Shown: positions 2,810 through 24,830 of the stretch, in pieces
Position numbering within the stretch: the first letter of the stretch is position 1
Layout of the letters: every line of letters starts with the position of its first letter
IMG/VR virus record: IMGVR_UViG_3300005613_000322
Coordinates: 1-28,704 of that record
Direction: 5' to 3' (one strand)
Length of the DNA: 28,704 nt
From: a virus
Notes under the pieces: generated by a model
What the model was told of the DNA's origin: nothing
The model's input: only the letters and a program-made list of their open reading frames with translations
Databases searched by the model: none
Made by a program: the position numbers and the translations under genes

Positions 2810-2837
2810 ATTGTATAAATACTTTGTTTTTTATTGG

Positions 2838-3068: not shown

Positions 3069-3077
3069 AACTTTTTT

Positions 3078-5035: not shown

Positions 5036-5060
5036 ATTCAGTTCAAGTCAATATTTTTAT

Positions 5061-6446: not shown

Positions 6447-6470
6447 AGTTTTATTTTGTTATATTTTTAT

Positions 6471-8196: not shown

Positions 8197-8208
8197 ATAT
8201 TATATTTT

Positions 8209-9330
8209 TTAATTGGTCATTGACCCAAACCATTTATATTGTAGGTATCTGTCTAATTGTGCTTCCTCATTCACATCTAAATCCCTTGAAAAGTGTATGC
8301 TTTCCCAATATTCCCCTAATAGTTTATGTCCAGTTGAATTACCTCCACTATTTCCTTGTGTTGATATGTAAAAATCTCTAACATACCAGGGGTCGTTTTT
8401 CGCACTAAATCCAGTTCTTGGTTGGTCATTTATGACTTGGTCTCCACCCGTTGTGGCATCTCGTCTAATGACTAATGTCAAGGGATAGTTGGTAAATCCA
8501 GTGTTATATGTGGTATAACTATCTTGGTTAAATCCATAACCAATACCCATTATTTGTTCTAAATCGGGTCTATGGGTCAATGCCCTCCTATCTCCAAAAG
8601 AAAAAGATGCCGTTCTACCAATTTCCCAATAACAACCTCTCCTACTTTCTTCCGTTGCTCCCGCTTTTACTTTATTCGTTCCAAGAGTAAATGAGGTGTG
8701 TGCGGTGAATGTGGTTATAGGGGTTATCTGGTTACTAATCATATAGTTATCTATCCCGTCAAATTGAGCCACTTGTAATAAACTTGTAGCGTCTGCCGAA
8801 CCACCCGTGAGCATTAGTGGTTGATAAGATGCGGTTGTTTGTGATATAGTCCAATTTCCCGTTTTGTCGGTAATACTTTCAATATAATTTGTTCCCGTTC
8901 TATAACTAATAGTTGAATTATCACTGAAATCTATCCAAGCGAACATATCACTAATTGTGTTTGGACTAAACTCACTCACACTGAATGTGGAATTACTACC
9001 ACTACCCTCATCACATACCACACTCACACTCACATTGGATGAACCTGTTGAGGTGAAATAACCCTCTGTGAGAACACTTCCCGTGAATGAGGTGATTGGA
9101 CTATCACTTGTATCATAAAAGTCCGTCAGAGACCAAATAAATGTGGGTGATGTCCCCGTTGTGGATGCCGATAGAATAACATTCTCATATTGAATCGTTG
9201 ATGAAGGGTCAATACTCACTTCAACGGGTGTAGGTGTTGGTGTAACACCACCCCTGTTTCTCCAACCCGTTCTTCTCGGGTGGTATATCATCATTCTTCT
9301 CAATTCTTCTTCGGGTCTGATAAAGGGCAT
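8209..9330 (-). CDS. Adhesin with Ig/PKD-like and LamG-like domains
   Basis: This 373-residue protein starts with a basic segment (RRMMIYHPRRTGWRNRGG) and a very short TPTPTP linker near residue 30. It is followed by an Ig/PKD-like domain (residues about 38-115, with ILSASTTGTSPTFIWSLTDF). The C-terminal part (about 128-373) is a LamG/ConA-like sandwich: MFAWIDFSDNSTI, IESITDKTGNW, AQFDGIDNYM, and the ending HFSRDLDVNEEAQLDRYLQYK. The final segment matches the plan of the C-terminus of the 3284-5035 adhesin (FFMYDRELSGTEI...YLKNKW), so the two are probably distant paralogues. It is the first gene after the terminator at 9352. Carbohydrate binding is likely but not shown. Confidence 0.8.
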   Translation of the reverse strand: MPFIRPEEELRRMMIYHPRRTGWRNRGGVTPTPTPVEVSIDPSSTIQYENVILSASTTGTSPTFIWSLTDFYDTSDSPITSFTGSVLTEGYFTSTGSSNVSVSVVCDEGSGSNSTFSVSEFSPNTISDMFAWIDFSDNSTISYRTGTNYIESITDKTGNWTISQTTASYQPLMLTGGSADATSLLQVAQFDGIDNYMISNQITPITTFTAHTSFTLGTNKVKAGATEESRRGCYWEIGRTASFSFGDRRALTHRPDLEQIMGIGYGFNQDSYTTYNTGFTNYPLTLVIRRDATTGGDQVINDQPRTGFSAKNDPWYVRDFYISTQGNSGGNSTGHKLLGEYWESIHFSRDLDVNEEAQLDRYLQYKWFGSMTN

Positions 9331-9351
9331 ATTTTTTGTTTTTTGAAGGCT

Positions 9352-9380
9352 AAAAAAGGGGGAGGTATTACCCTCACCCC
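9352..9380 (-). terminator. Rho-independent terminator inside the late operon
   Basis: Read on the minus strand: GGGG, bulged T, GAGG, loop GTAATA, CCTCCCC, then C and TTTTTT. An outer pairing TGAAGG with CCTTCA surrounds it. It follows the tail-tube-like gene and precedes the adhesin genes, so it probably lowers expression of the downstream genes relative to capsid and tube. Confidence 0.8.
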
Positions 9381-9388
9381 TTCATGAA

Positions 9389-9958
9389 TTATTCTCTATC
9401 AACAGAGATGTTTGTTCCGCTGAAATAAGTCGCCAAATCAGTTGAAACAGTCATCATAGGTAATGACCTTGTTTCATTTCCTGTCACGGTGATATCGTAC
9501 AATGTATCATCACCAGGTTGAGAACCCGACGCCACGGTCGCAGCGGAGATGTACATACCCGATGGAGAAGCAAGGAAATATCTTCCCGACTTCAATTTCA
9601 CGATGAAGTATGATTCAGTTGATTTCACAATCTCTTGGTATAAAAGAGTGTGTGATTGTGTCCAAGTTGGAATTTGGAACTGTAATGAAGGAACGAAAGA
9701 GAATGATAATGATTGAGCATTTACATTCACTTCTTCACTCAATACAGCGTTTGAGTTTCTTACAAGGTCAATTTTCTTGAATTCACCAGTAGTGTTTGCA
9801 TCAAATGATGACAACTCTTCAGTTGAAACATCATAAGTCAAACCACTTACTGAAATTGAAGTGCCAGTGGTAGTCAATACCCATAAAGAATCTACACCTG
9901 GTAGATTATTCTGACAATTTTCAAGAGTTAGTCCTCTTTCTATAACACAGTTTCCCAT
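9389..9958 (-). CDS. Major tail (tube) protein candidate
   Basis: This 189-residue beta-rich protein follows the capsid gene. The opening (NCVIERGLTLENCQNNLPGV...LWVL) and the ending (SGRYFLASPSGMYISAA, then GDDTLYDITVTGNETRSLPM) follow a pattern I know from the protein after the capsid gene in Bacteroidetes phages. That pattern is an N-terminal C-x-N-x-x-G segment and a C-terminal D...Y-x-x-T-x-T-G-x-E segment, and I read it as a tail-tube fold. The central part (LLYQEIVKSTESYFIVKLKSG) fits the strand-helix layout of tube subunits. A strong terminator directly after it suits a highly expressed gene. A head decoration protein is the main alternative. Confidence 0.6.
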   Translation of the reverse strand: MGNCVIERGLTLENCQNNLPGVDSLWVLTTTGTSISVSGLTYDVSTEELSSFDANTTGEFKKIDLVRNSNAVLSEEVNVNAQSLSFSFVPSLQFQIPTWTQSHTLLYQEIVKSTESYFIVKLKSGRYFLASPSGMYISAATVASGSQPGDDTLYDITVTGNETRSLPMMTVSTDLATYFSGTNISVDRE

Positions 9959-9994
9959 AGTTATTTATATTTGTTTTTTCAGTTTATTTATTGT

Positions 9995-10022
9995 GTGATT
10001 TTCATCACTGTGGTTTGACCAC
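9995..10022 (-). promoter_or_regulatory. Two tandem small hairpins after the capsid gene
   Basis: On the minus strand just after the capsid stop: GTGGT-CAA-ACCAC, then GTGAT-GAAA-ATCAC, the second with a GNRA tetraloop. No T-run follows either. They may stabilise the 3' end of the capsid message or mark a processing site rather than stop transcription. This is the longest gap between structural genes (66 bases). Confidence 0.45.
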
Positions 10023-10024
10023 TA

Positions 10025-10936
10025 TTATGCAATTCTTACCACTAATTCAGGGAAGAATACTAATGAACCCATTCTCCATTTCATTGATAATCTGTACTCT
10101 TGATTGTCAGCAGACCACCATGTAGATGCTTGTGCTGAATCCGTCATCAAGTCAGTTCCCAATGCAAGGTTAGCCCCGTATGTCAATAACGCTCTACCAC
10201 TACCGATTTCTGACGAAACCACGATTGTGTTTGTAGCAGGTAATTGAACCGCCATTGGAGCGATAACCGCACCACTTGGGTCATACTGTGGGTTGTAGTA
10301 GTTTGCGTTCAACAAACCTAAAATCAACGCTTGGAAATCCGCTCTATTCACGAACATCACAGTTGAGTTGTATTTCAACGCTTCTGGTAATGCCAATACA
10401 TATGTTTGAGCCACCTCAATAGCGTTTGCTGCTGTCATAGCAGTGTATGTCACATTGACAGTAGATGCTGATGCAGCGTCTAATTGTGCGTTGATTCCTA
10501 ATGAACAGTCAGTAGCGTCCGCCTGGAACCACTTTCTTTCGTTGAATACCGCAGCCTTTGCAACCAAGTCCTCAATGAATCTTTCTTCTGCACCGATTTC
10601 TTCGTTGTATGAACCCGCTTGCATTCTCAATCCCATGATTGTCTTTGCAAGTGATTCAGGACAGTAACCTTTTTGAATGTTGTAATCACATACAGTCAAA
10701 GTTTTTTCTGCCATAGTTATGTCACCAAATGTTGTTGAACAGTGACCAGTTGAAACTAATGAATCAATATCACCAGTATCAAATGTAGGTACTTTCTCTG
10801 CGTGTTTAATACCAGGGAAAATAGAAACATAATCAGCAACACTTGTACCGATTACGATTTTTGACAATAATTCAGTTTCGTTTGCAGAAACGAAGTCCGC
10901 CATATTATTGACAAATGAAAATGAATGTTTTTCCAT
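10025..10936 (-). CDS. Major capsid protein
   Basis: This 303-residue protein has the composition and layout of an HK97-fold capsid subunit. The N-terminal arm is followed by IVIGTSVADYVSIFPGIKHAEKVP, an E-loop-like stretch (residues about 55-90), a spine-helix region EEIGAEERFIEDLVAKAAVFNERKWF, and beta-rich P- and A-domain segments (VMFVNRADFQALIL, VVSSEIGSGRALL). It ends SMKWRMGSLVFFPELVVRIA, typical of a capsid C-terminus with charged and hydrophobic strands. It comes after a protease and a scaffold-like gene, the usual order of a head module. At 303 residues it is of normal size for the family. Fold assignment is inferred from these patterns and context. Confidence 0.8.
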   Translation of the reverse strand: MEKHSFSFVNNMADFVSANETELLSKIVIGTSVADYVSIFPGIKHAEKVPTFDTGDIDSLVSTGHCSTTFGDITMAEKTLTVCDYNIQKGYCPESLAKTIMGLRMQAGSYNEEIGAEERFIEDLVAKAAVFNERKWFQADATDCSLGINAQLDAASASTVNVTYTAMTAANAIEVAQTYVLALPEALKYNSTVMFVNRADFQALILGLLNANYYNPQYDPSGAVIAPMAVQLPATNTIVVSSEIGSGRALLTYGANLALGTDLMTDSAQASTWWSADNQEYRLSMKWRMGSLVFFPELVVRIA

Positions 10937-10959
10937 CTTTTTATTTGTTAGTTTTTGTT

Positions 10960-11511
10960 TTATTTTTTCAACTCTTTGAGGGTAGCGATTCTACCATCAA
11001 GTTTGCTGAATGATTTTTTGAAGGAATTGTCCTTCTTTATTGGAGCATACTCCGCTTCTTTTTTGAAGGCGTTATAGTCAGCCTCCAATGACTTGAATCT
11101 TTCGTCCATTTCTTTTGAATGACTTTCAAAAGCCAATAATAAGTCATGGATTGCCGTTTTGAGTTCGTCAATCTTTGCCAAATCCGCAGAAGCCTCTACA
11201 ACCTCTTCGTCTTCAACAACGATTTCTTCTTCCTCAATTTCTTCTACTTCTTCACGGATTTCAGTTACTACACTATTTTCGTCCAAAACGATTTCTCTTC
11301 CGTCTTCCAATCGGTGTAACCCGACAGGTGCGTTTTCAAAACCACTTTCAGTTTCAACATAGATAGTATCACCCAGTGCGATTGCATCTTCTGTTTGGTT
11401 CGTTACGAATACCTCACCACCTTCCAACGCAATTCTTTCAAATTTCTGTTCCACTGTTGTTTCAGGTGAAACCAATTTTTTGATTGCCGCAAATACTTCT
11501 TGCTTTGTCAT
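10960..11511 (-). CDS. Scaffold-like acidic protein
   Basis: This 183-residue protein has an N-terminal helical/beta part, then the pattern GLHRLEDGREIVLDENSVV, which I associate with scaffold-region proteins of environmental phages. A strongly acidic block (residues about 88-105, rich in E-E-I-E-E-E) follows. A helical coiled-coil region (about 112-155) precedes a lysine-rich end (FSKLDGRIATLKELKK). Acidic, coiled-coil and basic-tailed proteins between protease and capsid genes usually act as scaffolds. The basic tail could contact the capsid protein, as in other scaffolds. It begins 11 bases after the protease stop. Confidence 0.7.
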   Translation of the reverse strand: MTKQEVFAAIKKLVSPETTVEQKFERIALEGGEVFVTNQTEDAIALGDTIYVETESGFENAPVGLHRLEDGREIVLDENSVVTEIREEVEEIEEEEIVVEDEEVVEASADLAKIDELKTAIHDLLLAFESHSKEMDERFKSLEADYNAFKKEAEYAPIKKDNSFKKSFSKLDGRIATLKELKK

Positions 11512-11522
11512 ATTGAAGTTTT

Positions 11523-13964
11523 TTATTGATTATTTATGATGTTTTTCACCTCTTCAATAAATATATCGTATTCATCTTTATACAAAGAGGTTTTCACACC
11601 TTGAAGAATGGAGTGACTTTCACAAGCCATATAACCATCTTCGTGTTTATGAGTTCCACTACAACCAAGTGCCAATGCTCTTTCCAAAGCCTCTTCTTCG
11701 GTGGAATAGATGGGTTCTCCGTCCATATCTCCAATCACTGAATACTTGTATTCATCACGATTGTATTCCCTTGATAAGAACGAACCTTCAAGAGAAATCC
11801 CCAATGTCTCTTCTGAAAGGACATATTTTTCAAACTCTTCTTTATCGTCCCATTTCAAGGAAACCATCCATGTTCCTGGATTGACATAGAAACCCATTTC
11901 TGTGGCTTTATCTGTTTCAGGGTTATTCACCAACCATGATTCAAAAACATACCCCCCATTCAATGTCAAATTGGAATGTTCCACATTGAAGGACTTATGT
12001 CTGTTTTGTTTGAAGAACTTTTGAGCCATCAACTTTATGGTCTCTTTTGAGAATACTACATAATATATCTCATTTGTGTAGGGGTCTTTTCTGACGATGT
12101 ACCTGTCAGGCTCCATTACAACAGTTGTGATTTCATATTTCAAATCGTCCTTGAAGGTGTGTTGTTTGAATTCCATCTGACCATCTAATCCAACTCTACG
12201 GATAAAGTCCTTCAAATCAAAGGAAACACCCTCTTCCGTCAATGTTTCAATCGCTCTTTCAACAATCTTTTTTCTTTCTTCCAAGTCATCAACCTGAATA
12301 ATCAAATCCACAATACCATCAACCATTTCTCTATCTTCGTCATAGTTTTCAAAGTTTTCAGGTTTTTGTATCTGACGCAAATTGTCAGTATATTGACCAA
12401 CAATAGAACCATCAATAGTTCTTATCAATGCGACTGGTCTTTCTTCGGTTGCCGTGAGTGTATAATCAGTATTTGGTACTTTGACATCACCCTGAATTCT
12501 CAAATCAGTGATTTGTCCCCTTGCTCTATCGTCACCTTCACCTCTACCAGCATATGTCCAAGAAACATAATCACCAACACTGAATCCACCAGCATTATCT
12601 ACAAAATCTTGTTTGTATTCATTGTCATCAGTGGGGTCATATAGTGGTTTTGTGATATGTGCGTGTGGATTCTTTGAACATCTGTATATCGCTTCCAATT
12701 CACCAACACCATCGGTGATAAGAGTTCCAATACAACCTGTATTTCCCATGAAATCCATTTCAATCTGATTGAGTTTTCTTTCCACCCATCTCAACATTGG
12801 TAACCCACCCCAAAGTAGGTAGGAAATATATGCGCAAGAATCATATTCCTTTTTGTTCTGTGCTTCAACAAACCCGTCTTCCGCTCTTGATAGATAAGAA
12901 TAAGTTCTCTTCAAAGTTTCCAATGAAAGATTTTCACCCTGTGAAATTTGCTGTGCCCTTACTTTTCCCACTTGTGTGGCACAAGGGTTTCCAAGTTCTT
13001 CATTTCTCTTTATACCCATCTCTGCGGCTTCTTTTGCCCCTTCTGGATAGTCATTGTAGAATTGTTCTTCAATCAATGAAGATTTCAATATCTTCACTTC
13101 TTTGTTGTCAAAATATTCTTCGGTCGCCACTCCACCAATCCAACCTTGAATTCCGTCAATCTCAATCAATGACCAACCCATCGCATTTTCTGATTTCATC
13201 ATAGATGCGAATGTTGGATAGATGATAAGACCCTCTATGAACCCAATAGGGTTGTCCTGTGATGAGAACCCCGCAATACCAGCCAAATACCCCGCTCTGT
13301 TGGAAATACCTCCATTACCTTCTTGTTTGATGTTTTGTGAAGCGATGGCGAATGATTGTCCCGCACTACTTGGTAGGGTTGAAGCGAATTGTTCTTTCGT
13401 CATACCCTCTGGCACTTTGAATATCAACTTTCTGAAAATATGACGGCATTGTTTCCCCGCTTTCCATGTCTTCAAATCAACATCAAATCCCTGTGTTCTT
13501 GGAATCAGTTTTCTTGCTGAATCTATGGTAGATAATTGTCTTGACATCGCAGTCAAATCTTCATCTCTATACACCAATCCCGCAAATACGAAATCTCTAC
13601 AAATACTTCTTGATTCCCTGATAAGAGTACCACCCAAACCGACATCTACCGCATAGTAGTATCTGACCAATTCTCGGTCATTATCTTCCCTTGAAGATTG
13701 GTTTGATGTGGAGAATGGGGAATAGAATTTGTGGTATTCCTTTTCCGTGATGTCTTCAACACGAAACTCAACCCCCATATTGATATAAGAAGAGAAACTT
13801 TCCCCCTTTGTTTTGATTTCTTTTCTCAATGAGCATGTTCCATCACATTGTTCTTGGTCAGAAAATACCAACCAATCAAAATGTGTCGCTGCTTCCTTTA
13901 CAAGGGATAGTGCCTCAACACCTGATTCATCTTCCTCTTGTACAAATAGTTCAACTATCTTCAT
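11523..13964 (-). CDS. Large XkdF-like prohead protease fusion protein
   Basis: This 813-residue protein has several parts. The start (ELFVQEEDESGVEALSLVKE, to about 40) is typical of XkdF-type head proteins. Residues about 65-170 hold SRSICRDFVFAGLVYRDEDL and a later C-R-H-I-F segment, a Cys/His pattern seen in other phage head proteins. About 325-400 carries CATQVGKVRAQQIS and YISYLLWGGLPMLRW. About 455-510 resembles a small beta-barrel (GDYVSWTYAGRGEGDDRARG). About 600-740 is the XkdF-like serine protease domain, with FNVEHS, YVFESWLVNNPETDKATEMG, GTWMVSLKWDD and LGISLEGSF. The His of VEHS and the Ser of SLEGS are probable catalytic residues. It should cleave scaffold and capsid during head maturation. 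XkdF-type proteins are usually much shorter, so the fusion is unusual. Confidence 0.75.
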   Translation of the reverse strand: MKIVELFVQEEDESGVEALSLVKEAATHFDWLVFSDQEQCDGTCSLRKEIKTKGESFSSYINMGVEFRVEDITEKEYHKFYSPFSTSNQSSREDNDRELVRYYYAVDVGLGGTLIRESRSICRDFVFAGLVYRDEDLTAMSRQLSTIDSARKLIPRTQGFDVDLKTWKAGKQCRHIFRKLIFKVPEGMTKEQFASTLPSSAGQSFAIASQNIKQEGNGGISNRAGYLAGIAGFSSQDNPIGFIEGLIIYPTFASMMKSENAMGWSLIEIDGIQGWIGGVATEEYFDNKEVKILKSSLIEEQFYNDYPEGAKEAAEMGIKRNEELGNPCATQVGKVRAQQISQGENLSLETLKRTYSYLSRAEDGFVEAQNKKEYDSCAYISYLLWGGLPMLRWVERKLNQIEMDFMGNTGCIGTLITDGVGELEAIYRCSKNPHAHITKPLYDPTDDNEYKQDFVDNAGGFSVGDYVSWTYAGRGEGDDRARGQITDLRIQGDVKVPNTDYTLTATEERPVALIRTIDGSIVGQYTDNLRQIQKPENFENYDEDREMVDGIVDLIIQVDDLEERKKIVERAIETLTEEGVSFDLKDFIRRVGLDGQMEFKQHTFKDDLKYEITTVVMEPDRYIVRKDPYTNEIYYVVFSKETIKLMAQKFFKQNRHKSFNVEHSNLTLNGGYVFESWLVNNPETDKATEMGFYVNPGTWMVSLKWDDKEEFEKYVLSEETLGISLEGSFLSREYNRDEYKYSVIGDMDGEPIYSTEEEALERALALGCSGTHKHEDGYMACESHSILQGVKTSLYKDEYDIFIEEVKNIINNQ

Positions 13965-14001
13965 ATCTATTATGATAAATACTTTTTATTTATTGGGTAT
14001 A

Positions 14002-16941
14002 TCAAAGACGGGATATCTGTTCCAATCTCGCATTGATTTTCCTTGTGTCTTGTATGTCTTGGTCAAGAACATAGGTTTTGATAGGTCTTTGGTTCTGTCT
14101 TCTAATCTCTTCAACAATTCTTGAATCGTCAGCGACAAGGGGTCTTCCCCCCGTACTCATTGACATTTGTGACAAGATGTCAGAGAATTGTGAAACCGCA
14201 TTTCTATTCAATATCGCTTCACCACCTTCAACTACCAATCCACCATTCGCCATGATTCCACCTTGTTCGTGAGACGCACCCTGTATCAAACCACCCCTTC
14301 TTGCGATGAATTGTTTTGACTTCGCAAATCCAATCTGTGAGTTGATTACCGCAATCTGTGCCGCTGTTATACCACCGACCAATTGAGCCAGTAGGAAACC
14401 CGCAGGGGGTGCCACCGTCAATGCCGATATGTATGCTGCGGCTCCGTTTGCGATGGAATCAGCCAATGCGAATTGTAGTTCAGATATTCTCGCTCTTTTT
14501 TCAAGATTGAATCTGTCTTCCGCAAATTGTTTTTGAACCCTTTCTTGTTCTTTTCTTGCTTCTTCGGTCGCATCACCGATGGTCGCCAGTGTCAATTCTT
14601 CTTGGTATTGTAGTTGTTCCAAAGCCAGTGAATTTTGTTGTGAAACAATTGAAGATATTTGACCCGAAACCTGTGAGAATAATTGTACAACTTTCTGTGC
14701 CACCTCATCTATGTCATCAACCAAGTTATTCAACTTGATATCACTAATCAACTGGTTGATGTTTTCAATCTGTTCTTCGGTCAAGTTGGACGAACCCTCC
14801 AAGATGGTCTTGAAAGTGTCCTCAATCGTCTCTACGCTGTCCGCATTGTCAATAATGAACTGACGAAGGTTCTTGAATGCGTCACTATCCAAAGATTGTT
14901 CTTGTGATGTTACATTGTTTTTGATTTCTTTGGTCAATCGTGCCAATTCTTGATTCACATCAAATATACCTTTGTATAACCCCGCTTGTTGGATAAGGGA
15001 TTTTGTTATACTATCTATCGTTTGTAGTTGTTCTTCTGTCAGTTCTTTCCCCTCTTGTTGTGGGAATAATGATGCGGTGATAAGTTGGGTGATTTTTCTT
15101 TGTGTCACCTCTTTTCTTTCAAGGTTATTCGCATCTTCAATTTGAATATCACTGATTTCTTTCACCAATTTATTCAAGTCAATATTCAGATTGACCAATT
15201 GGGCGTTTGTCCCCAATGCTGTGGTCGCTCGGGTATTGTATTCACCCAATAAATTCACCAAATCAACATTGGTATCAAAATAATCTTGTAGGACTTCAAG
15301 GGATTCTTCACCGATAAGGGTTCTCACCTTTTCAGCACCACCCGCTTCCTTGATGACCTTCACCAAGTTTTTATATTGTTCTACTGCCGTTCCACCACCC
15401 GTTTGTACTTGTTCAAATAATTCTTGGAATATATCACGAAACTCAATGATTTCCTTTTCAGGAATCAATGCCCCTCCAATCAATCGGGTGAAATCTATCG
15501 CCAATTGTTCTTGTGCTGTTTTTTGTTCTTGAAGAATACTCTTTCTTTCCTCCAATAAATCATTCTGTTTTTCAATGACTTTATTTGCGTCATCTAATAC
15601 CTTTGCGGAAACCTCACCTTCAAGGTTGAATTCACCCAATGCCTTGATTGACAATTGTAACAATCTCAATCTTTCTTTTTGTAGTTCTATCGTTTTGTTG
15701 TCAGCGTCATTTGATTCTTTTGTCGCCTTGGTTTTGTCTTGTGTTCTTTTTGTTTGACGAGATAATATTTCCGCTTGTTCTTCTCTGTTTTCAAGTAGTT
15801 GTTTTTCAAGGACATTTTGGTCTTCAATCTGTTCAATCTCACCAGTACGAATGAGTTGGGCTTTCGCCATTTCTTGTGCTTGTTCAAAGGTCGCAGCACC
15901 CATACCTTTCATGATTTGGGTCGCCAGTACATTCACCTTATTCAAGTCAATAATGGATTGAATTTGTTTTCTTTTTGCTTGCTCATCAAGTTCCGCAGCG
16001 ATTCTTTCTTTTTCCAATTGAACCAAGAAATCTTCAAGTGCCCTTTCCTTTGCACGAAGACGGATAAGGTCAATCTGGTCATTTATCGCCTTATTCAATA
16101 TATCCGTCGCTTCGGCTTCTTCCAATGTATAACCCGCAAGTTCAGGGACAAGTTTTGTCAAATCTTTGTATATTTCCCTTCTGACATTTTGTGGTTTTTC
16201 TGTATCTTTCAACACCTTTGCCAGTTGTTGGATTTTCAAGATTTCAATACCAGAACTTTGTGCGGTTTCTTTTTGTAATTCCGAAAGGGTTTTTGTTTCC
16301 TTTGACAACTCTTCAGTTTCATCTTTTGCTGACATCAACTTGGAAATCAACGCACCAATCGCCACAACCGCAAGACCAATACCTGTGGTCGCCAACGCCA
16401 CACGGAGTGCTTTGAGTGCCCCCGTTGTTCCCCCAACAACTGCGGTATAACCTGCCTGTGCTGCGGTCAATAATCTTGTTCCAATCAACGATGCCTTTTC
16501 TGCAACATTTCTTTGGATTTGTTCAAACTTTACCTTCGCCTCAACAATCTGACGAATACCCAATGCGACATTCACAGCCGCCAACGCCCTTGCCTGAATC
16601 TTCGCAAGTTCTTCGGCATTCTTTCCTTCAATACCAAATGCTTGTACCGCAGATGTCGCCACCAAGAACGCACCCGTGACCCCATTTACCGAAGCCGCAA
16701 ACGCACCCAATGCCTGTTCTCTATCCGCACCTTCAATCTCTTTGTTGATGTCTCTGAAACCCGCTTTCAATTTCGCAAGGTCACCACTCAATCTGTTGAA
16801 TTCGTCACTACCAAACTCCGCAGTTTGTATCTCACTTTCAAGTTGGGTGATTGCGGTTTTTAGTTCATCTATGGACTTGACAGATTGTTGTGTCCCATTG
16901 ATTTTTATATTGATGCCGAGTGCTATATTTCTGGTTGCCAT
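14002..16941 (-). CDS. Tape measure protein
   Basis: This 979-residue protein is the tail-length ruler and probably helps DNA ejection. It is mostly helical with long coiled-coil stretches (residues about 25-80 and 400-560). Hydrophobic segments lie at about 177-205 (ALATTGIGLAVVAIGALISK) and about 820-873 (AAAYISALTVAPPAGFLLAQ). The C-terminal part carries RRGGLIQGASHEQGGIMANG and VVEGGEAILN, a G-G...H-E-x-G-G pattern that recurs near the end of many tape measures. Using the usual relation of tape length to tail length, a tail on the order of 150 nm is expected, which fits a siphophage. The start follows TATTTATAG in the gap before the ATG. Confidence 0.9.
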   Translation of the reverse strand: MATRNIALGINIKINGTQQSVKSIDELKTAITQLESEIQTAEFGSDEFNRLSGDLAKLKAGFRDINKEIEGADREQALGAFAASVNGVTGAFLVATSAVQAFGIEGKNAEELAKIQARALAAVNVALGIRQIVEAKVKFEQIQRNVAEKASLIGTRLLTAAQAGYTAVVGGTTGALKALRVALATTGIGLAVVAIGALISKLMSAKDETEELSKETKTLSELQKETAQSSGIEILKIQQLAKVLKDTEKPQNVRREIYKDLTKLVPELAGYTLEEAEATDILNKAINDQIDLIRLRAKERALEDFLVQLEKERIAAELDEQAKRKQIQSIIDLNKVNVLATQIMKGMGAATFEQAQEMAKAQLIRTGEIEQIEDQNVLEKQLLENREEQAEILSRQTKRTQDKTKATKESNDADNKTIELQKERLRLLQLSIKALGEFNLEGEVSAKVLDDANKVIEKQNDLLEERKSILQEQKTAQEQLAIDFTRLIGGALIPEKEIIEFRDIFQELFEQVQTGGGTAVEQYKNLVKVIKEAGGAEKVRTLIGEESLEVLQDYFDTNVDLVNLLGEYNTRATTALGTNAQLVNLNIDLNKLVKEISDIQIEDANNLERKEVTQRKITQLITASLFPQQEGKELTEEQLQTIDSITKSLIQQAGLYKGIFDVNQELARLTKEIKNNVTSQEQSLDSDAFKNLRQFIIDNADSVETIEDTFKTILEGSSNLTEEQIENINQLISDIKLNNLVDDIDEVAQKVVQLFSQVSGQISSIVSQQNSLALEQLQYQEELTLATIGDATEEARKEQERVQKQFAEDRFNLEKRARISELQFALADSIANGAAAYISALTVAPPAGFLLAQLVGGITAAQIAVINSQIGFAKSKQFIARRGGLIQGASHEQGGIMANGGLVVEGGEAILNRNAVSQFSDILSQMSMSTGGRPLVADDSRIVEEIRRQNQRPIKTYVLDQDIQDTRKINARLEQISRL

Positions 16942-16960
16942 ATTCTATAAATATTATTTT

Positions 16961-19627
16961 TTAGTAGGTGTCAAATGTCGCATATAAGTTCCCTGATGAT
17001 GGTAGATATACGGTCACATCCAACTCATAGAAGGTCAAGTCCGCAGGGTTTGGAATCGCCAATCTACCATAAGTATCGTCACCCGAAGTAGTACCAAATG
17101 TCAATTCAAGGTTATTCAATGAACCGACATTGTTTCTATATGTGAATGAAGAATAGATGTTGATAAATCCAGGTGCAAATCCAACACTACCACTACCAAG
17201 TGCCGTGCTTCTCAACAATTGAGCCCCCGTATCCACTTGTGTGATAACCAATTCTTCAAATTCAATATTCGCAAAACCAGCACCCATTTGTTCTTCAAAT
17301 ACCCATGACAATACACTTGTTGGTGGTGTTGGTGTCGGTACAGGTGTTCTTTCTTTTGCCTGTTCCACATAGTTTGGTGGTATAGGGGTTGATGACGGAA
17401 CTCTATATGGGACTTTCAAGAACTTACATTTGACTATATTGGGTTCTGTGATGTCACCATCTTGTATCTCCAACAATCTCCATTGTGCATTTAGGAAATA
17501 GATTTTGTCATTGAAGTTTATTTCTTGTATGTCTTCTGGTGTCAAATAGAAATACCCCGTGAATAATCTTGCTTCGGGTGAATACAATAGGTCAATGGGG
17601 TTTCGGTAGAAGTCATTCCATGCGGTATTTGGTGTATAACCCACCATATCGTTATGGGTCATAAAGAAGTCCCAATTTGATGTGAAATTCAAATCAGAAA
17701 CCTCTGTATTGGCAGTATAGGTCAATAGGGATAGGTGGTTGATAACAGGGTATATCGTTTGTTCTACCGCTGTTGTTCCACTTTGTAGGTACCAGGTTAT
17801 CCCTGTGAATGATGTACCACTGGTTGATGTATCCCCCGTGTATGGAATCTTCTTTCCAGCATAGAAACCCAATCTCGGTTCAGATGATGTCGGTCTTTCA
17901 CGAAGTATATCATCGGTATCCCTTTCTTGGACAAACAATTGTGGAACAACAAAATCACAATCACCAGTATTATTGACTGTATTGGTCGGTAGGGAATTGA
18001 ATACAAACTCAATGTCTTGTGACCCACTCAATAGGGTGTTGGTTGATGTATATGTCCTTGAACCGAAGATGTTATCGTAGTTTTCAATATAGTATTTTCC
18101 AAGCACTGTTTCATCGTCTTGGAATGTCAGGTTCAATTGTCTTTGTAATGAGAAATCCAAAGGTTCAATGGTATAGGTGTCATTCAGGTTCAACTTTTGG
18201 CTCCAATCCCTTGTATCCCCACTCAACGATGACAGATAGTCATTGTAGGGTTCAATCAAGAATGATTTCTCACCAGTGGGAACAATAACCAAGTTGAAAT
18301 AATTCACCACATTCCTCACGAAATCCACACTACTCAAAGAACATGGTAGGTTATCCACCCAATTCATTGTCGCCCCCGTTGTTGATAACAATGGTGATGA
18401 ATACAATCTCAATTTCGCATCTACAACACGCATGTCAGAATCTTGTAATCCACCCGTATTGAATTTCACAAACATCGCCACCCTTTGGTCTTTGGACAAT
18501 GTCGCATTGAAATATACATCAATGTCCGTATTTGACGAAACAAGGGGATATGCGGATAGTGTCACGATTGCGGTATCTGTGTCAATATCCCTCAAAGTGA
18601 AATCCAAATAAGAAGCACCGAAGAAAACAGGTGAGTAGTAGGTCATATCAAAGTTGAATTGGTATGTTCCCGCCACTGGTGCGGTGAAATAGTTTTTCGC
18701 ACCAATCTGTCCTGGTATTGTTGGATATTCCGATAGGGTATATCTATCCAAGTAGTCATAGTTCTCTTGTGAGAAGATGATGTATTTCCAATCTGCAAGT
18801 TCAAGGTAGTTATAGGTATATTGAAAGTTACCTTGTTCTACCTCAAAAAAGTTTTGGTTGTCAGGTCGGTCTTCCAATAACGAAGCCCCCATTGTCGGTG
18901 ATTGTCCTGCGAGCATGAAAACCGATTGAAAATATTGTGTGTCAAAAAATGCTGATTCATAGGTGAAACCTGCTTTTTGGAATACCTTGTCAAAAAGATA
19001 TTTCAGATTCACCCACGGCTTGAATTGTGTGGTTTGTATCGCATTCCCTGTTGGTGAGGTGAAACCCGTAGATGTGAAATCAAATGTTCCAAATGTCCCA
19101 TCTTCATCGTATCCCGTTTCAGCAAGGGGGTATAGTACTTTCCCCGTCAATCCCGAATAACTGTCATATGTCCCACCAGAATAGTCCCAAGTGGATAGAA
19201 TATTGTCATAGTTGATTTCATGCTCTATATCAGAGAAATCCAAATCACAGATGGTTGTTTGTTCCAATTGACTGGTGAAAGGTGTCATCGTTTCAACCAA
19301 ATATACCTCATAATTTACCAACCCATTTTGGTTGGTGATTTTGTTCAACCTCATTGTCCCCTTGAAAATATCACTACCCCTGTATTGAACAACACAACCA
19401 CTTTGTAGGGTCGCATCAAAATCTGTCGCATTCACATTGAATGCCGATTGGAAATACTTGTCATTCCTTGCGGAGCCAGGGATATTGAAGGTCTTCGTAT
19501 AACCACCCTTTCTGGCTGTTATATCTTCAATGTCCTCAATAGATTTGTTATAGGGAATGGAAACCTCTTCTTGCAAATCCAAGTAGGTGTATTGTCCATT
19601 TTTGTCAATTGCCAATAATTCAACCAT
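16961..19627 (-). CDS. Large tail/baseplate protein with Pro-Thr linker and added C-terminal domain
   Basis: This 888-residue protein begins VELLAIDKNGQYTYLDLQEE, followed by DITARKGGYTKTFNIPGSAR, a pattern I know from the tail-tip/hub protein of Bacteroidetes phages. Most of it is beta-rich with many aromatic residues. It has a late segment ARLFTGYFYLTPEDIQEINF and then NAQWRLLEIQDGD, which suggests a hub-type fold. Near residues 757-770 is a Pro-Thr linker (TPVPTPTPPTS), and residues about 771-888 form an extra beta-rich domain. Its stop overlaps nothing, but its start is TAATG-coupled to the previous gene. It sits before the tape measure in the transcript, the place for a baseplate gene only in rearranged operons. 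Confidence 0.7.
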   Translation of the reverse strand: MVELLAIDKNGQYTYLDLQEEVSIPYNKSIEDIEDITARKGGYTKTFNIPGSARNDKYFQSAFNVNATDFDATLQSGCVVQYRGSDIFKGTMRLNKITNQNGLVNYEVYLVETMTPFTSQLEQTTICDLDFSDIEHEINYDNILSTWDYSGGTYDSYSGLTGKVLYPLAETGYDEDGTFGTFDFTSTGFTSPTGNAIQTTQFKPWVNLKYLFDKVFQKAGFTYESAFFDTQYFQSVFMLAGQSPTMGASLLEDRPDNQNFFEVEQGNFQYTYNYLELADWKYIIFSQENYDYLDRYTLSEYPTIPGQIGAKNYFTAPVAGTYQFNFDMTYYSPVFFGASYLDFTLRDIDTDTAIVTLSAYPLVSSNTDIDVYFNATLSKDQRVAMFVKFNTGGLQDSDMRVVDAKLRLYSSPLLSTTGATMNWVDNLPCSLSSVDFVRNVVNYFNLVIVPTGEKSFLIEPYNDYLSSLSGDTRDWSQKLNLNDTYTIEPLDFSLQRQLNLTFQDDETVLGKYYIENYDNIFGSRTYTSTNTLLSGSQDIEFVFNSLPTNTVNNTGDCDFVVPQLFVQERDTDDILRERPTSSEPRLGFYAGKKIPYTGDTSTSGTSFTGITWYLQSGTTAVEQTIYPVINHLSLLTYTANTEVSDLNFTSNWDFFMTHNDMVGYTPNTAWNDFYRNPIDLLYSPEARLFTGYFYLTPEDIQEINFNDKIYFLNAQWRLLEIQDGDITEPNIVKCKFLKVPYRVPSSTPIPPNYVEQAKERTPVPTPTPPTSVLSWVFEEQMGAGFANIEFEELVITQVDTGAQLLRSTALGSGSVGFAPGFINIYSSFTYRNNVGSLNNLELTFGTTSGDDTYGRLAIPNPADLTFYELDVTVYLPSSGNLYATFDTY

Positions 19628-21198
19628 TATTCGTTGTCTTGTCTTGTTTCGTTATACCCACCAGAGTATTCAATTACCAATTCATATTCACCATCGTTTC
19701 TTTGGAAATTCGGTTCAATCACTTCCGTATTTGACAATACGATAGGTTGAATGTCACCATCTGAATCTATGAAATATACAGATGGGGATTTCAATAATTC
19801 ATCTGACAACCATACCAAGTAGGACTTTGATATTCTTCCTGAATACAATAATCCCGTCTTTGAGATGTTTTGTTTCCACACTTGGTTTCTGTTGTTCCAA
19901 CCATAGTATTTGTCAGCATCCCAACCCGCAGCATAGTTATCGGGTTCTCTTTGTAGTGATTCCCTTTGAATGTCATAACCGACATTGTGTCTGTATTTGA
20001 AGGTGAAGTATTCCCATGTTCCATAAGATGATAACCACATCACCCTTTGATTACCAGGCCCACATTCAGGGTCTTTGTAGTAGTAGAAATATTCAGATAT
20101 TCTTCTTGTTGAGAAACATTCTTCAATCAAACCACTTGGGGTTGTACATTCACCCAATAATGTTTTTGTGGTATTCGCACCAACACTGAATGAACCCCTC
20201 GCACAGATGTCAGCAGATGTCCCACCGACCAAGTTCAAGGTGGTCAAACTATTGTCTTCACATTGAGCATAGGTAATGGAATCTGTTCCAAACTCATCGT
20301 TGTTTCTCAACAGCCAACTGAAACACTGATATTCCGTTCCTTCAAGGGAAACACGATAATAATGCCAGTTTGAAGGTAGGGTGATTCCATGCTCTTCCAA
20401 GTTCTTTGTTCCCGTTCCAACATATTCAAAGAAATGTTTCTTGTAATTGAATGTATATCCCGTTACATCGTCACATGCGATATATTGACCACAATCTTGG
20501 AATAGGTTGATTCTTCTCGCATTTGATATTGGAATACCATCCACATCAAAAAACTCAAAGAACACCGAATATACGGGTTGTGAGAAGGTGTCATAGGTAG
20601 TTCCCGTGAATACACCTGGCTCCCTCATATTGAAACCAGTCAAGGTTGCCCAATCACTATCCGTGATGTATTGTACTCTTGGTTGGTCAGTCAAGAATTT
20701 GTGGGTATTCGCAGGGAAACCAGAAGGAAGGGAATAGTTGGATAAATAGAATGGGGTGAAATCAAACGATTTTCCCTTGTTCCAATTCTTCACTCCGTTA
20801 TACACATAGTTGGTATCCGATGTTGTTGTCGGTTCAAAGGTAATAACCACAGAATCAGGGGTTGTGGAATACTCTTCACCCACCTTGATGTAGTAGTCAT
20901 GGATATCGTCATTCAATGCTCCCCATTTGGCTTGAACAATAGGGGTTTCTGTTGTCCCCGTACAACCCTCATTTATGGGTCTTGATGAAAGATAATTCTT
21001 TATGATGGATGATATATCCACTTGACCCCAAGAAGTGTTCTGTGGGGTTATTTTCAATCTTGTTTGTTTCACTGAATCAACATACACATCCACAATATAT
21101 CTGTATTTGTAGAATGCGGTTTGTGCTGTTGAAGAAAACTGATATACCAAATTCCCATATGCTGGTTGTACTTTGGTTGGTTGTATGTCAATTGTCAT
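19627..21198 (-). CDS. Large tail structural protein (523 aa)
   Basis: This 523-residue protein is beta-rich with many aromatic residues and 9 cysteines. The opening (VQPAYGNLVYQFSSTAQTAF, then YKYRYIVDVYVD) and the internal motif IKNYLSSRPINEGCTG resemble a family of large tail or baseplate proteins that I associate with Bacteroidetes phages. A cysteine-rich middle (about 270-385) includes FQDCGQYIACDDV and GECTTPSGLIEECFSTRRI. It ends with an acidic DNE tail. The start overlaps the preceding stop as ATGA. The partner gene at 16961 usually occurs beside it, so the two may form one tail-tip assembly. Enzyme function is not evident. Confidence 0.65.
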   Translation of the reverse strand: MTIDIQPTKVQPAYGNLVYQFSSTAQTAFYKYRYIVDVYVDSVKQTRLKITPQNTSWGQVDISSIIKNYLSSRPINEGCTGTTETPIVQAKWGALNDDIHDYYIKVGEEYSTTPDSVVITFEPTTTSDTNYVYNGVKNWNKGKSFDFTPFYLSNYSLPSGFPANTHKFLTDQPRVQYITDSDWATLTGFNMREPGVFTGTTYDTFSQPVYSVFFEFFDVDGIPISNARRINLFQDCGQYIACDDVTGYTFNYKKHFFEYVGTGTKNLEEHGITLPSNWHYYRVSLEGTEYQCFSWLLRNNDEFGTDSITYAQCEDNSLTTLNLVGGTSADICARGSFSVGANTTKTLLGECTTPSGLIEECFSTRRISEYFYYYKDPECGPGNQRVMWLSSYGTWEYFTFKYRHNVGYDIQRESLQREPDNYAAGWDADKYYGWNNRNQVWKQNISKTGLLYSGRISKSYLVWLSDELLKSPSVYFIDSDGDIQPIVLSNTEVIEPNFQRNDGEYELVIEYSGGYNETRQDNE

Positions 21199-21758
21199 CG
21201 GAATATTTCTATTGTCTCTTGGTCAAAGATTTTTATGTTCCCAAGTGCGTTGAAAACCTCTTGGAGACCTGGCAGTTGTTCAATTTCTTCATCGGATAAC
21301 CCAATGAACCATTGTTGATATTTGTTTCTCACATCTTCAATAAATGAAGGGTCAAAAACGGGGTATGTACCAATTCCCCTTTGTTTGATTTTCATACTGA
21401 TTCTAATCAAACGGAATGTCTTTTCTTCTGGTGTCAGTCCCGCAAAACCTGGTAGTTTTCTATCCGCCCAACCACGAAGGTTTTCAATATTCACACCTTT
21501 TCCTGGTCTTCTACCCGTCTCAAAGTATATCTTCGCCTTGATATCATTCTCACCCACATTTGGATAAGTCAATGCGAGTTGGACATCACTACCGAATTGA
21601 AGGACTTCCATCGCCAATGAATCTGACAATGAACCCGTGTCATTCAAACGATATGATGTTCTCTTGAAACCACCCAAAGCATCTTTTCGGGTTTGTGGTT
21701 GTGCCAATCGTTCTTTGACCTCTTCAAGAATAAAACTCGCTATTGTATTCCAAGACAT
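21195..21758 (-). CDS. Tail completion/neck protein candidate (187 aa)
   Basis: This 187-residue protein has the look of the HK97 gp10 group of neck or tail completion proteins. Features are a helical start (IASFILEEVKERLAQPQTRK), a strand-rich centre (SLAMEVLQFGSDVQLALTYP), the segment YFETGRRPGKGVNIENLRGW, and KQRGIGTYPVFDPSF. The pattern of a tyrosine, a glycine/arginine-rich loop, then W is typical of gp10-type proteins. It lies between the 140-residue protein and the large tail genes, with only one base between it and the previous gene. This role is inferred from pattern and position. Confidence 0.65.
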   Translation of the reverse strand: MSWNTIASFILEEVKERLAQPQTRKDALGGFKRTSYRLNDTGSLSDSLAMEVLQFGSDVQLALTYPNVGENDIKAKIYFETGRRPGKGVNIENLRGWADRKLPGFAGLTPEEKTFRLIRISMKIKQRGIGTYPVFDPSFIEDVRNKYQQWFIGLSDEEIEQLPGLQEVFNALGNIKIFDQETIEIFR

Positions 21759-21759
21759 A

Positions 21760-22182
21760 TTACAAACAGAATGTACCTTCTACCCTCAAAGTTATGCTCG
21801 CATCAACCCCCGCCACTCTTGTCGGTAATCGGTCAAGAAATGGTTGAAACTGAATGGGTGTTACCAATGCGTAGGAATAGTCCTTCAAGTCATTTATGAA
21901 ATAGTCAGAGAAATCTTTCAATATCAAATGACATATCTTCAAGATGTCCAATTGGTTGTCTTCGGTATCGTCCAACATATCCATAAACAATACTTGGAAA
22001 TTGAAGTCAGTATAGTCAGGGTATATGGTTGAAGGGGTTGGAATGACATGAAGCAAAGGGAATGTGATTTTCTCTTTGTCTCTACCCACATCTGACAACT
22101 CACCCCAAGTGAATGTTTTCAACAATGGGTGTTGTTGTGCGAATGTATCAAAGGTTTCTATGATTGTACGATAGTTGTTCAT
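21760..22182 (-). CDS. Tail terminator-like protein (140 aa)
   Basis: This 140-residue protein begins MNNYRTIIETFDTFAQQHPL and contains TFPLLHVIPTPS, followed by FQVLFMDMLDDTEDNQLDIL and FQPFLDRLPTRVAGVDASIT. This helix-strand layout with a C-terminal R-V-A-G-V and a strand resembles a protein I know from Bacteroidetes phages placed before the gp10-like gene. It may be a tail terminator or tail-end capping protein. Its ATG overlaps the stop of the -1 frame extension at 22179 as ATGA, strong evidence that ribosomes normally read through that frame. Confidence 0.6.
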   Translation of the reverse strand: MNNYRTIIETFDTFAQQHPLLKTFTWGELSDVGRDKEKITFPLLHVIPTPSTIYPDYTDFNFQVLFMDMLDDTEDNQLDILKICHLILKDFSDYFINDLKDYSYALVTPIQFQPFLDRLPTRVAGVDASITLRVEGTFCL

Positions 22183-22945
22183 ATCTTTTGTTTTTTGTAT
22201 TTGGCTTCAAGTTCTTTATTCTTCTTCACCATATATGATAAATAGAATAATGCTTCTTGAACATTCAGATTTGTGGTTTCTTTCATTTTCAACGCATCTT
22301 CACCAGAAATAACCATAAATGTTTTGTAGTAGAAATCCACCAAATCACTCATCTTTTCATCTTCGGTTCTTTCATCGGGTTTTTCTACCCTTCCGTCATC
22401 TTCGTCCCTTTCCCCGAAGACAAGTGGGAATCTTCCAATTGTGCTTCGTAGAACTTCACGAAAAAAAAAACGCTGGATATGTAGTCATTGATAGGGAAAT
22501 CACCCATATCTTTGCTTCGTTCCACACATCGGTCATAATCGTATTTCTCAATCTTTCTGTCCTCACCCTCACCTTCAATCACTGGTCGGTATAGAATGGA
22601 TGCCAGTAGGTTGTAGTCCATTATTTCAGATGAAACCAATATGTGTAGGTCAGAGAACTCACCATAGGTCATATCTTTGGGTTGTAGTAATCCCAACAAT
22701 TCCCCCTTATATTCTCTTGTCATTGACAATGGGGTCTTTTGTAGTGAATTCACCCATGTCTTCAAAAATTTTGAAACGAATGTTATTTGATTGAAATCTA
22801 CATCCCTCAATTCTTCAATGGTCAATCCCGTCAATAGTGAAATGAAATTGATGTCCTTCATATCGGGTTCATCCATCATTCTGTTGTATTGGTTGATGGT
22901 AATGTATTCCAACTCTATTTCTTTTTCTCCAAGTGTAATCGTCAT
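22179..22945 (-). CDS. Tail assembly chaperone, -1 frameshift fusion (G-GT type)
   Basis: Reading of the 0-frame gene passes GTT TTT TTT TTC at 22471-22460, which contains ten T residues (22470-22461). A -1 shift at this site gives a 94-codon extension (22463-22182), beginning with FREVLRSTIGRF and ending KKNKELEAKYKKQKI. It has no stop until TGA at 22181-22179, where ATGA couples it to the next gene. The fusion would be 255 residues: 161 from frame 0 plus 94. This is the G/GT arrangement of siphophage tail assembly chaperones, whose T part binds the tape measure. The slip may occur on the ribosome or, given T10, during transcription. The extension is highly charged and helical. Not confirmed by mass data here. 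Confidence 0.8.
22385..22945 (-). CDS. Tail assembly chaperone, short form (G type)
   Basis: This 186-residue protein begins MTITLGEKEIELEYITINQY, a start I associate with tail assembly chaperones (strand, E-x-E, then helix). The body is helical, with FISLLTGLTIEELRDVDFNQ. Near the end it has VFFFVKF, encoded by the T10 slippery run, and a hydrophilic tail of about 23 residues before the stop at 22385. In the G/GT system the short form is made in excess and the frameshifted form in minor amount. The start overlaps the terL stop as ATGA. It is separated from the tape measure gene by four other genes, unlike the usual adjacency. Confidence 0.8.
   Translation of the reverse strand: MTITLGEKEIELEYITINQYNRMMDEPDMKDINFISLLTGLTIEELRDVDFNQITFVSKFLKTWVNSLQKTPLSMTREYKGELLGLLQPKDMTYGEFSDLHILVSSEIMDYNLLASILYRPVIEGEGEDRKIEKYDYDRCVERSKDMGDFPINDYISSVFFFVKFYEAQLEDSHLSSGKGTKMTEG
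22460..22471 (-). promoter_or_regulatory. Slippery site for -1 recoding
   Basis: On the minus strand this reads G, ten T, C. In frame 0 it is split GTT TTT TTT TTC, so both T TTT TTT and T TTT TTC fit the X-XXY-YYZ rule. A run of this length can also cause polymerase slippage. Short hairpins follow (TTCGT/ACGAA next to the run and TCTTCG/CGAAGA further on), which are weak. Confidence 0.75.
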
Positions 22946-24084
22946 AAAAATGAATATTGTGTTTTTGGTTTGTTTGACATTTCCAAAGCATATCTACACG
23001 CATCTATGGCGTGATTGTATAGGTCTTCGGGTTGGTCAATTATCTTCCCGTCTTTATTTGTTTTCCATTTATAGTTTTGGAACTCATCCAAAAGATTAGT
23101 TGAATCTTTGTGGATATGAACCCTGTGTCTTTTTATCATATCAATCCCATGTAGTATCGTATGTTTCTTGACAGGTTTCGCATTTATACCAGCCCTTTTG
23201 AGTTCTTCAATCACTTGCGGTGCTGCCGAATCAACCCATAGGTCATCAGTGGGGTCAATACCCATTCTCTGAATCGTATAGATGAGGTCTGGTGTTGTCA
23301 TTTGTGTTTTGTATATCAACTCCCTCAAATACACACTATCGTCTATTATTCTCACCTCTACCATCGCCATTGGGTCGCTATAACCAATATCTAATGCTCT
23401 GTATAACCTTCCCTCACTTGGGAAATCTTCCACCACATTCCATACCGAAAATACAGAGTTGGTTGCCACCCCCCTTTCCCCGAGACCAAACACCCTCCAT
23501 AGGTTGGGGTCTTTGTCTTGAAGGGATTCAATTTCCTTGATGATTTCCTGTGTCAAGAATGGATTTTCCTTGTAGGTGGATTTGTGAAAGAATGTACCTT
23601 CTTCTTCAATCAAATCATAGATGTACGAATATAGGTCAGAAGGGTTATAGTCAATGATGATTTGTTCTGTGGTTCTGATAGCCAGTTGGACATACTCATC
23701 TCGGGTCAATTCATTCCCTTCGTTGATAAAAAGTATTTCCCTCTTTCTACCCCTCAACTTTTGTTCTTCATCTGTTGAAAACCATTCTATGATTGACCCA
23801 TTGGGTAGGGTGTAGTATCCCTCTTGTTTCTTCCAATCACTTGGAATATAGATTTCAAGGGTTTCCAATATTTCCTTCAAGTCCCTCAATACCGACCCCT
23901 TCAACGCTGGTAGGGTTTTCCTGACGATAGAAAGAGTTTTGTTGGGGGTTTGGAGTAGATGTACCACCAACCAAATAAGAATGTTGTAGGTCTTGCCAGA
24001 ACGAGCCGACCCTTGAAACAATTTCAATCTCTTGTCCTTGTTGGTTTCCAACATTTCATATATTTCAGTGGTTTGGATTTTCAT
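22942..24084 (-). CDS. terL: Terminase large subunit
   Basis: This 380-residue motor packages DNA into the prohead through the portal and cuts it. The ATPase part has a Walker A (GSARSGKT, residues 25-32), a Walker B (ILFINE, about 117-122), and a coupling motif (IIIDYNPSD, 142-150). The nuclease part has RALDIGYSDPMAM with Asp 232, LWVDSAAPQVIEEL with Asp 285, and DLYNHAIDACRYAL near the end. These three acidic sites are the expected RNase H-like metal ligands. At 380 residues it is at the short end for the family but contains all expected motifs. It lies just after terS and a 53-residue gene, whose stop overlaps its ATG as ATGA. Confidence 0.95.
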   Translation of the reverse strand: MKIQTTEIYEMLETNKDKRLKLFQGSARSGKTYNILIWLVVHLLQTPNKTLSIVRKTLPALKGSVLRDLKEILETLEIYIPSDWKKQEGYYTLPNGSIIEWFSTDEEQKLRGRKREILFINEGNELTRDEYVQLAIRTTEQIIIDYNPSDLYSYIYDLIEEEGTFFHKSTYKENPFLTQEIIKEIESLQDKDPNLWRVFGLGERGVATNSVFSVWNVVEDFPSEGRLYRALDIGYSDPMAMVEVRIIDDSVYLRELIYKTQMTTPDLIYTIQRMGIDPTDDLWVDSAAPQVIEELKRAGINAKPVKKHTILHGIDMIKRHRVHIHKDSTNLLDEFQNYKWKTNKDGKIIDQPEDLYNHAIDACRYALEMSNKPKTQYSFL

Positions 24085-24242
24085 CTATTCTTCTTGTACA
24101 TTTTTATCATATCCCTGATTAGTACCCCCATTGTCTTTTCTTCGTCTTTGGAAATACTTTTGAGTTCGGTGTGTATGTTTTTGCCAATCCATATGGCTTT
24201 CATATCGTATTCATAGACCTTTCCGTTTGCTTTAACTTTCAT
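24081..24242 (-). CDS. 53-residue protein between terS and terL, RHH-like
   Basis: This short gene starts at an ATG inside the last codons of terS (11-base overlap) and stops as ATGA on the terL start. It encodes MKVKANGKVYEYDMKAIWIG, followed by KNIHTELKSISKDEEKTMGV and LIRDMIKMYKKNR. The layout, a strand, then a helix with ISKDEEKTMG, then a second helix, resembles a ribbon-helix-helix DNA-binding protein. The exact fit between two terminase genes, with both overlaps, is strong evidence it is real. It could help terminase find packaging DNA or regulate the operon. The function is inferred only. Confidence 0.75.
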   Translation of the reverse strand: MKVKANGKVYEYDMKAIWIGKNIHTELKSISKDEEKTMGVLIRDMIKMYKKNR

Positions 24243-24666
24243 TGTCATTTTCTTCTTCTTTTTTGATTATCTCCACCGATATGGTGTTGTCATTTATTTT
24301 GTCTCCTTTGGAGGTGATATCAACATCTTTTCTATCTGACCATCTGTCCTTGAACATGTTTCTCATAATCAGTGACCAGTGGTTTGAATTGATTGAACGG
24401 GAATTTCCTTTCACCCATTCTTGTTTCGCAATATCCAACCACCATTGTTCTGACAAACTTTGTGCTTGAATGACGGATTGGAAATATTCATTTGACCTTT
24501 CCATAAGGGTCTTGTGTGTTTTCCAAGATATCCCCATGTAATTGACTATATGCACCTCCGCACAACCCGTTTTCCCGAGTTCTCTGATATCTTCTTTCCA
24601 AGTTGATGGTATTCTTCCCCTTTGAACGAGAAGTTCTATTGTGAAGGGTTTTTTTCCTCTTTTCAT
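24232..24666 (-). CDS. terS: Terminase small subunit
   Basis: This 144-residue protein should recognise phage DNA and load the large subunit. I chose the ATG at 24666 because it overlaps the preceding gene's stop as ATGA; a TTG 12 bases upstream is less likely. The N-terminal part (STWKEDIRELGKTGCAEVHI) followed by NYMGISWKTHKTLMERSNEY looks like a helix-turn-helix. The middle has AQSLSEQWWLDIAKQEWVKG, and the C-terminal part NMFKDRWSDRKDVDITSKGD carries the W-D/S...D-x-T-S-K-G ending that I associate with small terminases. Its tail is acidic (EEENDNES), suitable for contact with TerL. The position before terL supports the call. Confidence 0.85.
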   Translation of the reverse strand: MKRGKKPFTIELLVQRGRIPSTWKEDIRELGKTGCAEVHIVNYMGISWKTHKTLMERSNEYFQSVIQAQSLSEQWWLDIAKQEWVKGNSRSINSNHWSLIMRNMFKDRWSDRKDVDITSKGDKINDNTISVEIIKKEEENDNES

Positions 24667-24830
24667 AATCCCAACCAATTTCTCACTTGTTCATCCGTTG
24701 GAAACTTTTTGAATTGTTCGTTGTACAACCCGTTGAGTTGTCCAGTTTCAATTATATCCAACTGTTCCCACTTTCTACCATTGACCAATCTCAATGCTCT
24801 TTTCTTCACATTGTCTTTGCAGTTACACAT
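24663..24830 (-). CDS. 55-residue protein upstream of terS
   Basis: This gene encodes MCNCKDNVKKRALRLVNGRK, then WEQLDIIETGQLNGLYNEQF and KKFPTDEQVRNWLGL. The stop is TGA overlapping the terS ATG as ATGA. Its ATG lies 24 bases after the stop of the upstream small gene. The CNC start is followed by a helical, charged body. It has the look of a small phage accessory protein, but I recognise no family. The tight overlap with terS supports it as a real gene. Confidence 0.7.
   Translation of the reverse strand: MCNCKDNVKKRALRLVNGRKWEQLDIIETGQLNGLYNEQFKKFPTDEQVRNWLGL

Follow-up and report, generated by a model that had tools for sequence, protein, structure and literature searches.

In a phage group related to the uncultivated virus studied here, a gene lying close to that of the terminase large subunit (TerL) is predicted to give two products with a common N-terminus, the longer one arising by a -1 frame change at a run of nine or ten T into a conserved extension; this expectation is met on evolutionary evidence only. 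We consider it likely that programmed transcriptional slippage makes the GT-like long form of this chaperone-like protein, although there are no RNA or protein data.

Gene layout and coding status of the -1 frame

The window, the whole stretch of 28,704 nucleotides that was analysed, is a complete IMG/VR virus record (IMGVR_UViG_3300005613_000322). The gene carrying the shift site is on the minus strand, which the first-pass annotation had not specified, and the order of genes on that strand is small terminase, TerL, shift-site gene, and structural genes. The features of the locus are listed in Table 1.

Table 1. Features of the two-product gene and its surroundings in the window
Feature	Coordinates	Strand	Basis or remark
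Frame-0 ORF (G-like short product, 186 aa)	22385..22945	-	ORF list; starts at 22945, ends at 22385
T10 run, shift site; codons GTT TTT TTT TTC	22461..22470	-	A10 on the plus strand
-1 frame extension (T-like domain), open from the run to TGA	22179..22469	-	Sequence, selection, conservation, predicted structure
Whole two-product gene; fused GT-like product of 255 aa	22179..22945	-	Sequence and relatives
TGA in the +1 frame immediately 3' of the run	22456..22458	-	Would end transcripts lacking one base
Next gene; weak match to PHROG 30964	21760..22182	-	ATG overlaps the -1 stop
TerL gene, adjoining upstream	22942..24084	-	Annotation
Tape measure protein gene, 5.2 kb downstream of the shift-site gene	14002..16941	-	Annotation

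The wider order of genes in the window is odd (24678..1724, minus strand): terminase, the chaperone-like gene, tail genes, tape measure, followed by a gene whose product has a Peptidase_S78_2 (XkdF-like) domain; the portal gene (2809..1724) comes much further downstream. By eye, two structural proteins (6471-7655 and 3284-5035, minus strand) contain long Thr-Pro repeat linkers (PTPTPTP...). On the plus strand, two adjacent small ORFs (27280-27615 and 27548-27892) have similar Cys-rich CxxC...CxxC motifs and, again judging by eye, are tandem paralogues.

Frame 0 runs for 24 codons beyond the codon that ends the T10 run; the first-pass annotation had recognized this early end but counted 23 residues. 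An open stretch of 94 codons lies in the -1 frame (peptide FREVLRSTIGRF...KKQKI), and the TGA that closes it (22181-22179) overlaps the ATG (22182) of the next gene as ATGA, exactly as had been proposed. Without the extension, the gap to the next gene would be 202 bases, the maximum among the structural genes (the runner-up is 147), in agreement with the earlier statement that a gap of about 200 bases would otherwise be the largest. Judged from the -1 frames of the other genes of the phage, an open stretch of 94 codons has a p of about 3e-4, and the exclusive part of the extension, when shuffled, stays open in 0.2% of cases. The T10 run is the longest homopolymer in the window, and other T runs in the 20.8 kb of structural ORFs reach T6 at most.

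Among relatives, the differences in the part of the extension beyond the frame-0 stop number 47/22/107 at -1 codon positions 1, 2, and 3, with a dN/dS of about 0.1-0.4 for most of the informative pairs. Alignment of relatives had been suggested at the outset as a check for purifying selection in the -1 frame; that selection was found, and it supports the uncalled extension at the T10 run. Open stretches in the -1 frame measure 72-106 codons, the exceptions being one read of 50 and three truncated where their contigs end, and the observation named beforehand as a refutation, stops in the -1 frame of relatives, was not made after the run in any of them. The frame-0 tail is not conserved. In one of two nearly identical phages (L023, compared with L024), frame 0 stops early, 9 codons past the run (3709-3740), so the tail is apparently dispensable. 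Members L124 to L144, in which frame 0 is about 250-280 aa, were considered as fused genes and rejected as such: they have only a long frame-0 tail, and T9 and the open -1 frame are present.

The T domain might instead be made on its own, by ribosomes that reinitiate at a start codon of the domain once they have passed the frame-0 stop, and the records of the cultured phages P12024L and P12024S do show a second ORF annotated with a separate start. We regard this as very improbable, since sequence conservation begins at the run itself (FF..FR), the opening 50 codons of the -1 frame contain no ATG in 79 of 109 clusters (30 have none at all), and the frame-0 stop drifts from 9 to 106 codons past the run. 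The -1 stop lies on the next start or at most 10 nt away in 81 of 108 clusters. Conservation starting at the run, scarcity of ATG codons, and a -1 stop adjoining the next start together make a fusion the simplest account of the extension. At the level of sequence comparison, these data establish the extension as a selected coding region, with the run as the point where the first ORF passes into it.

Relatives of the gene and length of the T run

A first scan recovered three relatives with 55-73% identity in the best segments and nearly the full fused length covered; all three have exactly T10 and a -1 frame that ends as ATGA on the next gene. The first scan of genome contigs gave no match, and neither did tblastn of the window protein and of the relative L010 against named phages. 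The census was widened with alignments, TerL, and more distant members as queries, an alignment of seven sequences being too diverse as a scan query. The larger pattern scans relied on peptide patterns located upstream of the T run and hence did not favor any particular run length. Once contigs ending before the site were excluded, 259 loci with a complete site were left. The run is T9 in 208 and T10 in 51 of these, and T7, T8, T11, any other length, or a fused ORF was not found among the 259. They form 125 clusters at 90% identity of the fused protein (T9 in 103, T10 in 22), 83 at 70%, and 37 at 50%. Several hundred further loci turned up and were left out of the census, and the 125 clusters are a lower bound. 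Whether the run is T9 or T10 splits by clade, and six placements of the run relative to the codons occur.

The cultured Nonlabens phages P12024L and P12024S (genus Inhavirus) belong to this set, with the site CTT TTT TTT TAT and an open -1 frame. The gene, with T9 in these two phages, follows TerL as it does in the window; it is annotated as two hypothetical proteins in each phage (genes _40/_41 of P12024L and _38/_39 of P12024S), with no mention of recoding. One of the 259 loci sits in a Flavobacterium genome contig, and the hosts of the phage group are probably Bacteroidota. In the members checked, the gene either adjoins TerL on its downstream side or is no more than about 2 kb from it, and the tape measure gene is not its neighbor. 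In the Bacteroides phage BS162P3, TerL is followed by a single ORF without a run of 8 or more, and its relation to the group could not be shown.

These counts bear on two explanations at the level of DNA. Homopolymers are error-prone and the window is a single metagenome contig, so that a sequencing or assembly error in one homopolymer might hide a single ORF; however, all 259 records, including cultured phages and a bacterial genome contig, give out-of-frame counts. The records are independent, and a single-assembly error cannot explain the run; the relatives already refute this explanation, and we see practically no room for it. A T count joining the two frames directly, which would have undone the proposal of an extension, is found in no relative. 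Replication slippage could alternatively toggle the gene in and out of frame, and some bacteria use homopolymers of such length for phase variation. Yet an in-frame count occurs in no genome, and both length and placement of the run are identical in 352/352 pairs at 90% identity or more, which leaves phase variation with hardly any credibility.

Transcriptional slippage or ribosomal frameshifting

The run stays at 9-10 T while the position of the extra T's relative to the codons varies, as do the amino acids encoded there. This retention of length whatever the codon phase points to slipping of RNA polymerase rather than of the ribosome. On a quick tree (51 substitutions per site in total), there are about ten changes of placement and six of length, although these counts are rough and deep branches are weak. 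Two criteria for a slippage site are met: a run of at least nine conserved in length among homologs (125 clusters), and conservation of length rather than codon phase (six placements). A run of nine that homologs keep at constant length has been put forward as the hallmark of purposeful slippage (PMC1088944). Slippage is efficient at A9/T9, the RNA-DNA hybrid of the polymerase being 9-10 bp (PMC5009743); the 9-10 T found here are as long as this hybrid. The suspicion of polymerase slippage voiced in the first-pass annotation is supported by the 9-10 T found across 125 clusters and six placements, in the absence of RNA data.

In programmed -1 ribosomal frameshifting, the slip would be a re-pairing of two tRNAs on U UUU UUU or U UUU UUC/A/G inside the run, as happens in lambda G/GT. 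The nearest upstream stop in the -1 frame is 17 nt away from the run, and the two frames can join at or beyond this stop only. This leaves the run's own heptamers as the only ones usable for a -1 shift, and an in-frame U UUU UUU or U UUU UUN heptamer is present in every placement and at all sites. Shifting to -1 is the known route for G/GT (PMC5009743), and in E. coli, codons of the UUY type are comparatively prone to shifting (PMC4066793). Ribosomal shifting nevertheless accounts for at most seven T's and leaves the floor of nine in six placements unexplained; nor was a stimulatory structure found, since RNA structure up- or downstream within 70 nt in 23 relatives did not exceed that of shuffled sequences (pseudoknots and Shine-Dalgarno pairing were outside the model). 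Unstimulated heptamers in E. coli give at most about tenfold over a background of 0.055% (PMC4066793). The extra U's would have to be tolerated, raise the efficiency of shifting, or serve a Phe-rich protein motif. Phe residues in both frames may hold some of the T's. With a P(T|T) of 0.32, we estimate by hand that only about a quarter of T7 heptamers would reach nine by chance, a figure in favor of slippage. We regard ribosomal shifting, together with this reading of the extra U's, as possible but doubtful, and clearly prefer slippage to it.

Runs of T9 or longer are otherwise rare inside ORFs, with 3 in the 623 kb of census loci, at least 2 of them at a terminator-like hairpin a short way upstream of the gene; no such hairpin is found at the run inside the gene. 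In several relatives, a further T9/T10 run, preceded by a perfect 8-9 bp hairpin, lies some 55 nt ahead of the chaperone-like gene (L046 at 2949, L047 at 2950, L050 at 2949, L060 at 2933, L061 at 2941, and L088 at 2938; also L053 at 2941 and L103 at 2938). This putative element looks like an intrinsic terminator.

Under transcriptional slippage, one gene would give two proteins at a set ratio. Most mRNAs would carry the templated U10 and be translated into the short G-like protein. In some, the RNA-DNA hybrid would slip as the host RNA polymerase copies the homopolymer, adding one U, and ordinary translation of these mRNAs would yield the 255-aa GT-like protein with its conserved, predicted C-terminal helical domain. 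Transcripts that lose a base would end almost at once in the window phage because the +1 frame is closed. An immediate stop in the +1 frame was rejected as a general rule; it holds in two clades and fails in others. Both the occurrence of the shift in transcription and the ratio of products are inferred.

The closest parallels to the site are the 9A/9T slippage systems of Shigella mxiE and spa13, Thermus dnaX, and IS elements, where an ORF likewise contains a pure A or T run of nine or ten. There, as here, homologs keep the run length, and a conserved second frame is reached when a base is inserted (PMC1088944, PMC5009743); in the phage group, in contrast, the run is in a phage morphogenesis gene.

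Likely function of the protein and its meaning

No known family covering the window protein was found. PHROG 32199, a family of unknown function whose annotation does not mention recoding, is matched by 41 of 58 G parts. The G part (residues 1-161) is predicted by AlphaFold2 to be a mixed alpha/beta domain with a pLDDT of 93.7, and the T part is predicted to form helices. Foldseek with the G and T parts against the PDB gave no significant match. In a second-look structural alignment, HK97 gp13 (2OB9) ranked first, although weakly (Z 3.3, 75 aligned, rmsd 3.9), and VIA-align on the T part gave nothing, with only two chains compared. No match was obtained with a G-part sequence profile against the PDB, or with hhalign against HK97 gp13 and lambda G and T; Phage_TAC_7 was reached by only 2 of 58 members, at an E of 0.022. 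Known tail assembly chaperones diverge widely in sequence. The G protein of lambda attaches to the tape measure protein, T brings in the tail tube subunit, and neither is in the virion.

Like lambda G/GT and HK97 gp13/gp14, the gene is predicted to give a short product and to be extended in the -1 frame from a point close to where the first ORF ends; an extension made of helices, here by structure prediction, and a place in the structural gene block are also common to all. It differs in its shift site, which is pure T9/T10 rather than the mixed heptamer GGGAAAG of lambda, in having no sequence similarity to the lambda and HK97 chaperones, and in lying near TerL rather than between the genes for the major tail protein and the tape measure protein. 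The criterion of a position directly before the tape measure gene is not met, several genes and the distance given in Table 1 intervening, and the first-pass annotation had rightly placed the site far from that gene. No other small chaperone candidate before the tape measure gene was found in the window. On account of the arrangement, size, position in the structural block, and lack of another candidate, a tail assembly chaperone is our best guess. The protein is most likely such a chaperone, by inference and without binding data; the G/GT layout proposed initially is retained, while homology to known chaperones could not be demonstrated. That the gene works like G/GT is likewise a best guess, and we do not claim proven membership.

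G/GT recoding and transcriptional slippage are each already known, and their combination appears new, slippage at a tail assembly chaperone gene not having been found in a limited search of the open-access literature. On balance, we lean towards the view that a phage group of at least 125 clusters makes the long form of its chaperone by RNA polymerase slippage at T9/T10, with length and not phase conserved. The long product is absent from current annotation, in which the gene appears truncated or split, and the cultured phages P12024L and P12024S make the slippage idea directly testable. The recoding of G/GT is conserved in long-tailed phages and is treated as ribosomal. If slippage is confirmed, a ratio that is set on the ribosome in lambda would in this phage group be set during transcription, and one function would be served at two levels of gene expression, as with dnaX in E. 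coli and Thermus.
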